Shown here piece after piece: positions 57,800 to 64,000 of a stretch of DNA of 64,000 nt (the first letter of the stretch is position 1; every line of letters starts with the position of its first letter). The DNA is from Haloarcula halophila (GTDB lineage Archaea > Halobacteriota > Halobacteria > Halobacteriales > Haloarculaceae), in assembly GCF_029278565.1 (NCBI RefSeq), contig NZ_CP119559.1, positions 1,488,001-1,552,000 of the forward strand, read 5' to 3'. Position numbers and translations under genes: made by a program. The notes beneath the pieces were generated by a model. That model was not told where the DNA came from. It did not search any database and saw only the letters and a program-made list of their open reading frames with translations.

Positions 57800-58261
57800 T
57801 CACTCCTCGTCGAGGTCGAGGTCGAACTGTTCGTTTTCGCTTGCGGCGTTGAGGACGACTGACGTGTTCGATTCCTTGATGTCGGGATCGGTCAACAACT
57901 CCTTGATCTGAGCGTTCATCCCGTCCGTATCGGTGAACTTCCCGATGGCGATGATGTCGTAGTCGCCGGTGACCTCGTAGACCGAGATCATCTGTTTGTG
58001 CTGTTTGAGGTCCTCGGTGACATCGGGCAGGGACGATCCCTCGACTTTCAACTGGACGATCGCTGTGACGTCGTAGCCGAGTGCCCCGTAGTCGACCTTG
58101 GGCGTGTAGCCGTTGATGATTCCCTCGTCTTCGAGTGTCGAGAGGTGGTTCGAGACCGTCGTTACAGAGACGTCGAGGTCCTCACCGAGGCTTCGGAGAC
58201 TGGCGCGTCCATCCCCCAACAGGGCATTCACTAGCTTGCGGTCGAGATTTTCGTACGTCAT
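57800..58261 (-). CDS. lrp: Lrp/AsnC-family transcription regulator
   Basis: A 153-residue regulator: an N-terminal HTH ([20 protein letters not shown], then [20 protein letters not shown]) and a C-terminal RAM ligand-sensing domain ([36 protein letters not shown]). It is divergent from glnA with a 126-bp shared intergenic region, an arrangement described for other haloarchaea, where Lrp acts on glnA; here that control is an inference. The ATG of MTYENLDR is used; a TTG four codons earlier is possible. The C-terminal tail is acidic. Confidence 0.92.
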
Positions 58262-58387
58262 ACCATCCAATCACACCCCGTGGGCATTAGAATTTTACGA
58301 ACGTCCAGATGGCTGGGCGGAGTTCGGAATCTTTGCGCAAATCAGCAGGGTTTTAGTAGTGCCAGTGTTCCTATCCGGTGTTCAAAG
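58262..58387. promoter_or_regulatory. Shared lrp/glnA promoter region
   Basis: This 126-bp space holds two outward promoters. For lrp an AAAATTCTAATG box lies about 25-30 nt before the start on the minus strand; for glnA, GGTTTTAGTAG lies about 30 nt before the ATG. The Lrp product is a likely ligand here, but no certain operator can be named. Confidence 0.5.
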
Positions 58388-59746
58388 ATGACAAGCGAAC
58401 TCTCCGACGAGGCAGAGGCAGTGCTCGACGAGATCGAAGAGAAGGACGTCGATTTCCTTCGACTTCAGTTCACAGACATCCTCGGCACAGTCAAGAACGT
58501 CTCCGTCCCGGCCGACCAGGCCGAGAAGGCGTTCACCGAAGGGATCTACTTCGACGGGTCGTCCATCGACGGCTTCGTCCGCATCCAGGAGTCGGACATG
58601 CGCCTGGTCCCGGACCCGTCGACGTTCGCCCTGCTCCCGTGGCGGAACCGCGACGACATCGAGGGTGGTAACAGCGCGCGTCTGATCTGTGACGTCCACG
58701 ACACCTCGACGGACGCGCCGTTCGTCGGCGACCCGCGTGGCGTCCTGCAGGACGCACTCGACCGCGCCGAAGAGATGGGCTACACCGTCAACGCGGCCCC
58801 CGAACCGGAGTTCTTCCTCTTCGAGGAGGACGAGGACGGTCGCGCGACCACGAAGACCAACGACGCCGGTGGCTACTTCGACCTCGCGCCGAAGGACCTC
58901 GCCAGCGACGTTCGCCGTGACATCATCTACGGCCTCGAAGACATGGGCTTCGACATCGAAGCCTCCCACCACGAGGTCGCTCAGGGCCAACACGAGATCA
59001 ACTTCGAGTACGACGACGCCCTGTCGACGGCCGACAACGTCGGTACCTTCCGCTCGGTCGTTCGCGCCATCGCGGCCGAACACGACCTGCACGCGACGTT
59101 CATGCCCAAGCCGATCCCGCGCATCAACGGCTCGGGGATGCACACGCACATCTCGCTGTTCGAGGACGGCGAGAACGCGTTCCACGACAGTGACGACGAG
59201 TTCGACCTCTCGGAGACGGCCCACAGCTTCATCGCCGGCATCCTCGAACACGCCCCGGCCCTGGCCGCCGTCACCAACCCGACGGTCAACAGCTACAAGC
59301 GGCTCGTCCCCGGCTACGAGGCACCCGTCTACGTCGCCTGGTCGGACCGCAACCGCTCGGCCCTGATCCGCAAGCCGGCCGCACGCGTCCCGGCCGCCTC
59401 GCGTATCGAGGCCCGCTTCCCCGACCCGTCGTGTAACCCGTATCTCGCCTTCGCGGCGCTCATCCACGCCGGCCTGGACGGCGTCGAGAAGGGGCTCGAC
59501 TGTCCGGACCCGGTCCGCGAGAACATCTACGAGTTCGACGAGGAGAAACGCGAGGAGTACGGCATCGAGACGCTGCCGACGAACCTCGGAGAGGCCGTCG
59601 ACGCGCTCGAAGAGGACGAGGTCGTCCTCGACGCGCTCGGCCCGCACGTCTCCGAGAAGTTCGTCGAGGCCAAGCGCGAGGAGTTCAAGGACTACCTGGT
59701 CGACGTCTCCCAGTGGGAGATCGACCGGTACCTGGAAACCTTCTAA
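58388..59746 (+). CDS. glnA: Glutamine synthetase type I
   Basis: A 452-residue GS that makes glutamine from glutamate, ammonia and ATP. The grasp domain opens [20 protein letters not shown]; conserved blocks are [27 protein letters not shown] with the metal-binding Glu, [20 protein letters not shown] with the substrate loop, and [20 protein letters not shown]. Length and motifs match archaeal GSI. The start is fixed by the conserved SDEAEA region; earlier in-frame codons lie in the promoter. A poly-gamma-glutamate operon follows 330 bp downstream on the same strand. Confidence 0.97.
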
Positions 59747-60076: not shown

Positions 60077-61261
60077 ATGCTGATCGCCACGACAGTGATG
60101 CTCGTCGGTCTGGTCATCGGGGTGGGAGCGGCGCAGTTAGCCGGGTTGCGCCTCGGTGGCGTGATCGTCGTTCCACTCGTCTCGGTGTATCTCCTCAGGA
60201 GTTTCGCGACGTTTCCCGTCTTCCTCGCCAGCGTCGGGGCGGCGTACGTCTCGCTTCGCGTTATCAAGAACCGCGTCTTGCTCTACGGACGACCCGTGTT
60301 CGTCGTGAGTGTGCTGATCGGTGCGCTCGTGCCCGTCCTGGTGTTCGAGTTCCTCGCTATCGCTGCCGGGATCGACATCGGACTGACACAGGTCGAGTTC
60401 GTCGGTAGCGTCCTGCCGGGCATCGCGGCGTACAACTACCATCGAATCGATGCGGAAAAGCGGGTCCTCGACATGGTGTGGAGCCTCGCGACCGTGCTGT
60501 TGCTGACGGTCGTCGGGATCGGACTGGTGATCCTCGTCGGCCTCTCGCCGCTGGCCGGAGCGTTGCCACCGTTGCTGTTGGGTCCGAACTCCGATATCGC
60601 GGTCGCGTTCGACCTGGTCGTTGACCGGCCGAACCTCCCGGTGCTGGCCTCGGACACCCTGGCAGTCAGCCTGCTCTCGGTAGGATTGCTCGTTTCGGAA
60701 GCACTCCGGTCGCGGTACGGGCTTCGGATCGGGGGCGTGATCGTCGTCCCGCTGATCGTCCTCATCGCGTTCCGTAACGGCTGGATGCTCCCACTGTGGA
60801 TCGGAACGGCCGCGACAGCGTACCTCGCGGTGCAGTTCGTCCACTGGTGGACGCTGTTGTACGGCCGTGTCGTCCTCGGGTTGGGTGTCATTGTCGGCCT
60901 CCTGGGGAGTATCTCCGCCGTCACAGTCGTCCCGGTCCAGCACGGACTGTTGCCGTTTTTCGTCGGTATTCTCGGGGGTGTGACCGGCTACAATCTCCAC
61001 GTGGTGCCGCCGGCGGAGCGGCGCGCGAACCTCTTCGTGACCGGCGGTGTCTTCGTCACGGTTGTCGCCATCGCTCGACTGTTCGTCATCCCACCGGCGT
61101 CCGGACTCCTCCAGTACGTCTCCGGGAGACACGTGGCCGCCGGAGCGGTGTGTTGTCTTCCCGCGCTGTACGAACTCTACCATCTCGAACGACTCCGGCC
61201 GGACGATGAAATCACTGTTGCCCCCGAAGCCACCGGACCGGACCCGAGCGAGGAGTTGTGA
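60077..61261 (+). CDS. pgsC: Poly-gamma-glutamate synthesis membrane protein PgsC/CapC, internally duplicated
   Basis: A 394-residue integral membrane protein. Two related halves are visible: GLRLGGVIVVP (residues 23-33) with LLYGR (68-72) recur as GLRIGGVIVVP (215-225) and LLYGR (260-264), a period of 192 residues; GIAAYNYH near 115 has its counterpart GVTGYNLH near 301. Each half has the size of a bacterial PgsC/CapC (about 150 residues), so this is a fused tandem duplicate of about ten helices. PgsC works with PgsB at the membrane to polymerise glutamate. The C-terminus is acidic. Its stop overlaps the pgsB start region. Confidence 0.88.
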   Translation: MLIATTVMLVGLVIGVGAAQLAGLRLGGVIVVPLVSVYLLRSFATFPVFLASVGAAYVSLRVIKNRVLLYGRPVFVVSVLIGALVPVLVFEFLAIAAGIDIGLTQVEFVGSVLPGIAAYNYHRIDAEKRVLDMVWSLATVLLLTVVGIGLVILVGLSPLAGALPPLLLGPNSDIAVAFDLVVDRPNLPVLASDTLAVSLLSVGLLVSEALRSRYGLRIGGVIVVPLIVLIAFRNGWMLPLWIGTAATAYLAVQFVHWWTLLYGRVVLGLGVIVGLLGSISAVTVVPVQHGLLPFFVGILGGVTGYNLHVVPPAERRANLFVTGGVFVTVVAIARLFVIPPASGLLQYVSGRHVAAGAVCCLPALYELYHLERLRPDDEITVAPEATGPDPSEEL

Positions 61262-62445
61262 CCATGGACGTGCCGTTCGATCGTGACACCGTCGCACGCC
61301 TTCTCAAGTGGGGCTGGGCCGGCGTGACGGATGCGCTCGGTGCCGGCCCCGTCCACCGGCGACGACTGGCCGCGATCGATACCCGGATCGTCGTCTCCGG
61401 CGTCCGGGGCAAGTCCTCGGCCACCCGGTGGCTCCACGACGTGTTCCACCGGCGGGGGAACGATGTCATCGCGAAGATCACCGGCGACGAACCCGTCACG
61501 CTCTACAACGGCACCGAACGACCCGTCGAGCGGGACGGGCAGGTTCGTCTCTACGAGAACGAGCGTGAACTCCAGCGTGTATCTAACGCGGATGTTGCGG
61601 TAATCGAGAATCAAGGGATCAGACAGTACACGACGCGGCTCGTCAACCAATCGTTCGTGAAACCGGACGTACTGTTCCTGATCAATGTCCGGGAGGACCA
61701 CATGGACACGCTCGGCCGGACCAGGACGGCGATCGCGCGGTCGCTGGCCCGGAGTGTCCCTGCCGGGACGACGGTTATCAACGGCGAATCCGACCCGCAA
61801 CTCCGGTCGTACCTGACCAGAGAGCTCGAACGACGTGACGCGGTCGTCAGACACGTCGATCCGCCCGGCTGGGCCACCGAGTACCCCGGCTGTGAGGTCG
61901 TCTTCGGTCTGAACGAGGTACTCGACGCGGTCGGTGAACCGCCACTCTCGCCGGCCGACGTCGACCGGAAACTCGCCTCGATGGCCCCGGAATGGCAGGT
62001 CCTTCCGAACGGGAAAGTGCACGACGCAGCCGCCGTCAACGACGTCCAGAGCACGGAGATCGTCAGACGGGCGCTGGTCGGCGAGAGCGGGACGGTCGTC
62101 GAACCGCTGGTGAACCTCCGTGCCGACCGCCGGGGACGGACAGCGTCGTTCCGTCGGTATCTGGGGGCGCTGTTGGCAGACGGCCACGCCGGGGAGATCC
62201 ACGCCCTCGGCGACGGCCGCCACGCGTTCGCCAACACGGCGGACTTTCCCGTCCGAACGTACGGCGAGGGGGCGGCCCCCGAGTCGGTTCTGACGGACGT
62301 GCTCGCTGCCGGCAATCCGGTACTCGTCATGGGCAACACCGTCACCGAGTTCATGCGCGACATCCAGGCCGAGATCGAAGCACGGACGATCGACCGGGAA
62401 CCGGCCGCAATCACTCGACAGGAACGGGCGGTGAGCCGACAGTGA
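61258..62445 (+). CDS. pgsB: Poly-gamma-glutamate synthase PgsB/CapB
   Basis: Mur-ligase-like ATP-dependent amide ligase (395 residues from the GTG). The P-loop is VVSGVRGKSSATRWL (GVRGKSS near 48-54), and the diagnostic NVREDHMDTLG follows near 143. Further blocks are VIENQGIRQYTTRLVNQSF and, near the end, VLVMGNTVTEFMRDI. It forms gamma-amide bonds between glutamates via a phosphorylated intermediate. A GTG overlapping the pgsC stop (GTGA) and an ATG two codons later are both possible starts. The pgsA start overlaps its stop in the same GTGA manner. Confidence 0.92.
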   Translation: MTMDVPFDRDTVARLLKWGWAGVTDALGAGPVHRRRLAAIDTRIVVSGVRGKSSATRWLHDVFHRRGNDVIAKITGDEPVTLYNGTERPVERDGQVRLYENERELQRVSNADVAVIENQGIRQYTTRLVNQSFVKPDVLFLINVREDHMDTLGRTRTAIARSLARSVPAGTTVINGESDPQLRSYLTRELERRDAVVRHVDPPGWATEYPGCEVVFGLNEVLDAVGEPPLSPADVDRKLASMAPEWQVLPNGKVHDAAAVNDVQSTEIVRRALVGESGTVVEPLVNLRADRRGRTASFRRYLGALLADGHAGEIHALGDGRHAFANTADFPVRTYGEGAAPESVLTDVLAAGNPVLVMGNTVTEFMRDIQAEIEARTIDREPAAITRQERAVSRQ

Positions 62446-64000
62446 CCGACAGTGGCCGCTCACGCCGTGCGTTGCTCCGGACCGTCGGAACTGTAGCGGG
62501 TACCGCTCTGGCGGGGTGTGGCACTATCGCAGACGTGTTCCCCGCCTCGGACCCACCGGACACCGGCCCACAGTCGTCCGCGACCGCGGTTCGGGGACGT
62601 GTCGTCGACACGGGAGGAACGCCAGTTGTGGACGCCGACGTGACGGCACTCGGTACCGGCGGGACTAACCTCGCGACAGCACGAACCGACGACGGGGGCC
62701 GGTTCTCGCTTTCGGTGCGTCGGCCAGTTTGGGTTCGCGTCCGGAAAGACGGCTACAACGAGCGTGTTCGGGCCTGCCGACCAGGACCGACACACAGGAT
62801 TGTCGTGACCGAAGCGACCGGAACGGCGACGCTCACCTTCGGTGGCGATACGATGTTCGCTCGACGTTTCTACACCGACCCGACAGACCAGTTGAACCCC
62901 CGGGCACGCATCGATCCGGGCGATCGGCGTGGTGACCACGACGCGATCCTCGATCCGATCGAGCCGGCGTTATCGGCCGCTGACCTCACCTCGGTGAACC
63001 TCGAAACCCCGTTGACGACGCGGGGTCTGCGTCACCCGGAGAAGACCTATTCCTTCGCCTCACACCCCGTCGCTGCCGACGCGCTCGCCGCCGCCGGCGT
63101 CGACTACGCGGCGCTGGGAAACAACCACGTCCTCGACGCGCTCGGGCCGGGGCTCCGGGACACGACCGCGGCGCTCGCCGGGGCCGGCGTCGGCTACTCC
63201 GGTGCCGGGACCTCGGCGGCGGCCGCCTGGGAGCCACACGTCCAGGGGGCCGGCGACCTCACCGTCGCGTTTCTGTCGTGTACGACGATCACCGGCGACT
63301 TCTACGCGATCGATCTGGCTGCGAACGGGCCGACCGACAGGCCCGTCACCGTCACCATCGACGGCGAGTCCCGGACCGTCCCTGCCGGCGTCGGGGCCGC
63401 CCGTGCGACGACCGATCGGCTCGACCGAGCCGTGAGACGCGCCGACGAGACTGCCGACGTCGTCGTCGTCCAGATCCACGGTGGCGAGCCGTACCAGCGG
63501 ACACCGACACCCGACGTGCGACGGCTCACAGCGACGGCCGCTCGGAGCGGGGCGGATCTCGTGGTCAACCACCACCCGCACGTCACAGGCGGGATCGAGC
63601 GGGTCGAGGGAGCGCTCGTCGCGTGGTCGCTGGGCAATCTCGTGTTCGACCAACGGATCTGGCCGACGTTCCCGACGTACCTGTTGACCGTCACTGTCAG
63701 TGCCGAGGGCGCCGAACGGGCGACCGTTGACCCGGTCCTGATCGACGGGTTCGTCCCCCACGGGATCGTCGGCAAACCGAACAGGACGGTGACCTGGAAC
63801 ACACTCGCGACATCGAGCGAGGAAGCGACCGCCACGCGGTCCGGTGTCACGTTCGGTGCGGGGAGTCGGCCCGAGCGGGCTGTGAGCAAGCAGTTCCCCG
63901 AGCGCGGTGCGATCTATGCCCGGGAGGTCGGCTGGGTAGCCGGAGTCACGGAGGGGCAAATCCGACTCGGGCGTGACCTCCTGCCGACCGGTCGGTTCGA
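62442..64000 (+). CDS. pgsA: PgsA/CapA-like poly-gamma-glutamate protein, Tat lipoprotein (3' end outside window)
   Basis: About 519 residues are visible; the end lies beyond the window. A twin-arginine region (RSRRALLRTVGTVAG) and lipobox LAGC (Cys26) predict an exported lipoprotein. Residues about 47-122 look like a carboxypeptidase-regulatory/CNA-B-type beta-sandwich (VRGRVVDTGGTPVVDADVTA and GRFSLSVRRPVWVRVRKDGY). From 128 the CapA metallophosphatase-like domain follows: GGDTMFARRF, NLETPLTTRG, LGNNHVLDALGPG, VVVQIHGGEPY and SLGNLVFD. The extra N-terminal domain is not usual in the Bacillus protein. The GTG start overlaps the pgsB stop by 4 bp. It probably helps polymer transfer or anchoring at the surface. 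Confidence 0.88.
   Translation, partial: MTDSGRSRRALLRTVGTVAGTALAGCGTIADVFPASDPPDTGPQSSATAVRGRVVDTGGTPVVDADVTALGTGGTNLATARTDDGGRFSLSVRRPVWVRVRKDGYNERVRACRPGPTHRIVVTEATGTATLTFGGDTMFARRFYTDPTDQLNPRARIDPGDRRGDHDAILDPIEPALSAADLTSVNLETPLTTRGLRHPEKTYSFASHPVAADALAAAGVDYAALGNNHVLDALGPGLRDTTAALAGAGVGYSGAGTSAAAAWEPHVQGAGDLTVAFLSCTTITGDFYAIDLAANGPTDRPVTVTIDGESRTVPAGVGAARATTDRLDRAVRRADETADVVVVQIHGGEPYQRTPTPDVRRLTATAARSGADLVVNHHPHVTGGIERVEGALVAWSLGNLVFDQRIWPTFPTYLLTVTVSAEGAERATVDPVLIDGFVPHGIVGKPNRTVTWNTLATSSEEATATRSGVTFGAGSRPERAVSKQFPERGAIYAREVGWVAGVTEGQIRLGRDLLPTGRF

Follow-up and report, generated by a model that had tools for sequence, protein, structure and literature searches.

A two-unit PgsC in the pgsC-pgsB-pgsA operon of Haloarcula halophila and its counterparts in other haloarchaea

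Introduction

The pgsC gene in the 64,000-nucleotide stretch of Haloarcula halophila DNA analysed here (the window) raises the question of whether one chain can hold two PgsC units and, if so, where the doubling came from and what it may do in the synthase. In Bacillus, glutamate is polymerised by PgsB together with PgsC, and export has been assigned to PgsA with PgsE (PMC5751247). For the CapBCA complex of B. subtilis, in-cell proteomics by crosslinking and by co-fractionation has been reported, along with a confident predicted structure (PMC10090944). The first-pass annotation of the window read its PgsC as two copies of the bacterial unit fused in one chain and followed by an intact PgsB, and proposed that the fusion either fixes the stoichiometry of the synthase or makes a larger membrane channel.

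Two CapC units in one PgsC chain

The Pfam model PF14102 (Caps_synth_CapC) matched the window PgsC in two stretches (E = 3.6e-27 and 95.6 bits for the whole protein), and both stretches exceeded the curated cut-off of 27 bits (75.9 and 39.9 bits). Local alignment of residues 1-190 with residues 191-394 gave a score of 170 over about 160 residues, whereas 1000 shuffles gave a mean of 43, a standard deviation of 7.2 and a maximum of 74. The GLRxGGVIVVP and LLYGR motifs recur at a spacing of exactly 192 residues, as read from R25/R217 and R72/R264. When the whole genome was searched, no second PF14102 match appeared down to E = 10. The halves thus align and no single-unit PgsC turned up elsewhere in the genome, so the first-pass reading of two fused units, with repeats 192 residues apart, holds.

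With two units and 394 aa, the protein does not match the single-unit bacterial form of about 150 aa, and against TIGR04011, the bacterial PgsC equivalog, it scored 34.8 bits, under the curated cut-off of 96.45. An artefact, be it an assembly duplication or a missed stop joining two genes, has practically no likelihood: the halves share only some 27-32% identity, and 80 loci show this two-unit arrangement.

Table 1. Features of the pgs operon in the window
Feature	Position	Strand	Evidence
pgsC, double-unit PgsC/CapC, 394 aa	60077..61261	+	PF14102 twice; full-length match to haloarchaeal doubles
CapC unit 1, residues 10-129	60104..60463	+	PF14102, 75.9 bits
GLRLGGVIVVP motif, copy 1, residues 23-33	60143..60175	+	R25 and G28 invariant in 39 doubles
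LLYGR motif, copy 1, residues 68-72	60278..60292	+	G71 and R72 invariant in 39 doubles
CapC unit 2, about residues 202-308	60680..61000	+	PF14102, 39.9 bits
GLRIGGVIVVP motif, copy 2, residues 215-225	60719..60751	+	G220 invariant, R217 in >90% of 39 doubles
LLYGR motif, copy 2, residues 260-264	60854..60868	+	Y262, G263 and R264 invariant in 39 doubles
pgsB, Mur-ligase-like poly-gamma-glutamate synthase subunit, 393 aa	61264..62445	+	TIGR04012, 106 bits
pgsA/capA-like	62442..64000, running past the window end	+	PF09587, 209 bits; PF13620, 40.7 bits

Distribution of the double form

PF14102 matches were present in 68 of 292 Halobacteria genomes, nearly all of them in frames at least about 380 aa long. 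We built a profile from an alignment of 39 doubles (A1) and ran it against 391 Halobacteria genomes, 78 of which contained relatives. Among the matches listed, 80 loci in 72 of the 391 genomes were full-length doubles that covered the profile almost end to end, and the same search found no intact single-unit PgsC in these genomes. The double form is therefore universal among intact haloarchaeal PgsC. Besides the broken and split copies described below, the exceptions were a match at a contig edge (G608), one with a truncated second copy (G556), a fragment (G035) and a highly diverged double (G136). The fusion that the first-pass annotation set against the single unit of Bacillus is thus real and lies in a Pgs operon, but it is not peculiar to this genome: it is the standard, ancient and widespread form of PgsC in haloarchaea.

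Outside Halobacteria, within the wider phylum, one family (f13), probably of methanogens, carried the gene in eight genomes as seven doubles and one decayed copy. Unit 1 of the decayed copy, which lies on the minus strand of L048 at about 1480-1854 (genome G484), contains an in-frame TAG. A further genome of the wider phylum, G449, encodes a 159-aa single-unit PgsC followed by pgsB. Searching PLSDB plasmids by tblastn with the window PgsC returned nine records, all haloarchaeal and all annotated PgsC/CapC; with the 159-aa single unit, the plasmid search likewise returned haloarchaea only. A scan of named genomes yielded only three close relatives, and viral contigs scanned with both the double alignment and the single unit yielded none.

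Some copies were found broken. In G201 (L012:1474-2633), a double PgsC is frameshifted exactly inside the second GG motif, through either a sequencing error or a real lesion. Two species of one genus (G096 and G629) carry a split orphan pair (L080:1612-2621 and L081:1549-2558), in which the YGR of a 128-aa unit-1 remnant has become HRR and a separate ORF of 207 aa, overlapping the remnant, encodes unit 2 with YGR intact. No PgsB was found in the 6-kb stretch holding this pair, which adjoins a 617-aa gene resembling, by eye, asparagine synthase. The reading frames of the pair remain open in each of the two species, so the split pair may have taken on a new role.

A single ancient duplication and unequal constraint

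We placed 24 N halves and 24 C halves in a maximum-likelihood tree with the G449 single unit and B. subtilis PgsC, the latter a yardstick sequence whose identity was checked by its TIGR04011 score alone (150.9 bits). All C halves were set apart from the rest by a single branch supported at 99/99. The N halves grouped on the other side with the single units, and the branch of the N group was recovered in 51% of bootstrap trees, the single-unit branches being very long and unstable in position; the G449 unit was distant from both halves. The window PgsC shares the unit spacing of the haloarchaeal doubles, and its unit 2 lies in the C clade. As no N half pairs with the C half of its own protein, the tree implies a single duplication before the sampled doubles diverged, and double PgsC, judged from these sequences, descends from one ancient duplication-fusion. 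In both halves, the f13 doubles nest among those of haloarchaea, a position suggesting acquisition by transfer from haloarchaea.

Across the 39 doubles, the two units share the motifs R-x-x-G, YGR and G-x-x-A-Y-N. The residues kept in both are R25/R217, G28/G220, the G-R of YGR (71-72/263-264), G115/G301 and R129/R315, together with A-Y-N at 118-120/304-306, where the window itself has G304. Unit 1 alone keeps Y38, P47, A56, P114 (of the bacterial "PG") and D132, PG and the Asp being lost from unit 2, and it has 16 invariant positions out of 168 against 6 of 155 in unit 2. Between the window and Halovenus (L034), we obtained dN 0.206 and dS 1.21 for unit 1 (dN/dS about 0.17), and dN 0.314 and dS 1.18 for unit 2 (dN/dS about 0.27); dS was saturated in comparisons with L033. 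These ratios indicate purifying selection on both units, with unit 1 the more constrained.

The lower Pfam score of unit 2 (39.9 vs 75.9 bits), its fewer invariant positions and the loss of PG and Asp could also mean that it is a degenerate scaffold helix bundle and that a single PgsC unit does the work, as in the bacterial form. We consider this unlikely, since unit 2 is under purifying selection and deeply divergent doubles all retain its R-x-x-G, YGR, G-x-x-A-Y-N and R315; moreover, the two species with the split pair (L080, L081) keep YGR in the unit-2 ORF while unit 1 has decayed.

Predicted membrane topology

Both hydropathy and low-confidence structure models are compatible with an arrangement in which each unit has six helices in matching register and an additional helix lies at 350-372. 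Averaged over 28 non-redundant doubles, the net loop charge in unit 1 was +1.2 for loops 1-2, +2.0 for loops 3-4 and +0.1 for loops 5-6, and the corresponding values in unit 2 were +2.3, +1.8 and +1.5; loops 2-3 and 4-5 and the linker were near neutral or acidic. Under the positive-inside rule, this matching alternation suggests that both units share one membrane orientation, although the nearly neutral loop 5-6 of unit 1 is a weak point of the pattern and the helix boundaries, taken from low-confidence models and hydropathy, are a weak basis. The same orientation is expected when each of the fused copies crosses the membrane an even number of times. Structure prediction gave a pLDDT of 37 for the whole PgsC (4-sequence alignment) and of 53 for a single unit (7-row alignment), both too poor for a fold search, and a sequence search of one PDB copy returned no structure related to PgsC.

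Operon partners and the likely polymer

The genes pgsC, pgsB and pgsA form a tightly packed operon in which the Mur-ligase-like pgsB and the PGA_cap-bearing pgsA neighbour pgsC. An alternative GTG start of pgsB at 61258 overlaps the pgsC stop, and the GTG start of pgsA at 62442 overlaps the pgsB stop. In 22 of 22 distinct double loci inspected, PgsB directly adjoins PgsC, often with overlapping ends. The window PgsB has a Walker A (P-loop) motif, GVRGKSS, and is the sole TIGR04012 match in the genome. Its 106.2 bits lie below the curated cut-off of 222.7, so the "intact PgsB" of the first-pass annotation is better described as a divergent archaeal PgsB. The pgsA gene extends about 556 bases beyond the window, to about 704 aa in total (extension read in L059). 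By eye, its product begins with a Tat-type (twin-arginine) lipoprotein signal, SRRALLRTVGTVAGTALAGCG, followed by a CarboxypepD_reg domain and then PGA_cap.

Just upstream of the operon lies glnA (58385-59746; glutamine synthetase, by eye), and beside it a divergent Lrp/AsnC-type regulator (57800-58270). The PgsB of many haloarchaea and of f13 is 531-546 aa long (L066:6538-8178, L075:3199-4794 and similar), carrying an N-terminal extension of about 130 residues with a weak match to DUF1508, below the cut-off; the window PgsB is the short form.

It is quite unlikely that the operon makes or exports another gamma-glutamyl or amide-linked polymer or conjugate, to which, rather than to stoichiometry, the double PgsC would be suited. 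PgsB and PgsC do match their equivalog models only below cut-off, many haloarchaea have the N-terminally extended PgsB, and no PghP-type hydrolase (PF05908) was found in the window genome; against this, homologues of PgsB, PgsC and PgsA co-occur, and haloarchaea such as Natrialba aegyptiaca make L-poly-gamma-glutamate (PMC3815933). The glutamate racemase model TIGR00067 had no match in the window genome, which, as far as this model goes, is consistent with an L-polymer as in that species. For species with a double PgsC, we found no experiment in the literature linking the operon to a polymer.

A covalent pseudo-dimer as the proposed membrane subunit

We consider it probable that this PgsC is a covalent pseudo-dimer, derived from one ancient tandem duplication-fusion and serving as the membrane subunit of a haloarchaeal poly-gamma-glutamate synthase. 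The two units would pack next to each other, oriented alike in the membrane, and replace two copies of bacterial PgsC. Their conserved basic loops (R-x-x-G, YGR and AYN-R) would face the cytoplasm and dock PgsB, which would activate glutamate with ATP and elongate the chain on the cytoplasmic side. The paired units would then act in the membrane as a platform or path for the lengthening polymer, which the lipoprotein PgsA would receive outside. Unit 1, which keeps PG and Asp132, probably does the PgsB-coupled work, with unit 2 as a more relaxed partner. The sequences show the two units, their single origin, the operon, the motifs retained and lost, and the charge pattern; we infer the dimer geometry, this division of labour, the path of the polymer and L-poly-gamma-glutamate as the product. 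The haloarchaeal complex most likely works as the Bacillus one does, with a double PgsC in place of two copies; as we found no stoichiometry of bacterial PgsC in the literature, this substitution is likewise our inference.

Of the two roles first proposed for the fusion, fixing the synthase stoichiometry would fit units that share an orientation and are both under purifying selection. The other, a larger channel for a thicker or faster-exported polymer, has the doubled membrane mass in its favour and nothing else; if bacterial PgsC is itself an oligomer, as it may be, the fused chain would form the same channel, and we regard this role as very unlikely.

We tentatively put forward, as a possibility that falls short of probable, that haloarchaeal PgsC is an obligate pseudo-heterodimer with divided labour, in which the ancestral role coupled to PgsB stays with unit 1 and unit 2 is a remodelled copy. 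If true, the fusion would reveal the PgsC of all poly-gamma-glutamate synthases as a parallel dimer. That a tandem fusion has persisted since early in the history of this gene in haloarchaea hints that the working unit contains an even number of parallel PgsC copies. Double PgsC is a useful natural experiment on PgsC architecture, and it offers a single-chain construct for structural work and for mutating one unit at a time.

Comparison with known systems

Public records already hold double PgsC under the name PgsC/CapC, without comment on the doubling, and we found no discussion of the duplication in the literature. One example is WP_014030701.1 of Haloarcula hispanica, which shows about 70% full-length identity to the window PgsC; the same C-B-A operon lies whole on plasmid pHH126, with no essential difference from the window operon, and the annotation "poly-gamma-glutamate biosynthesis protein PgsC/CapC" leaves the duplication unmentioned. 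In Haloquadratum walsbyi, a CapBCA locus has been reported and a poly-gamma-glutamate capsule proposed (PMC1544339); the description consulted does not discuss unit duplication.

B. subtilis PgsC/CapC belongs to the same family (PF14102) as both window halves, has PgsB and PgsA as neighbours and shares YGR and G-x-x-A. However, it is one unit of 149 aa whereas the window PgsC is two, it passes TIGR04011 (150.9 bits for the yardstick sequence, against 34.8 for the window PgsC), and its gene order is B-C-A rather than C-B-A. The 159-aa PgsC of G449 (L049/L077) resembles the window protein in lying directly upstream of PgsB, but it consists of one unit.
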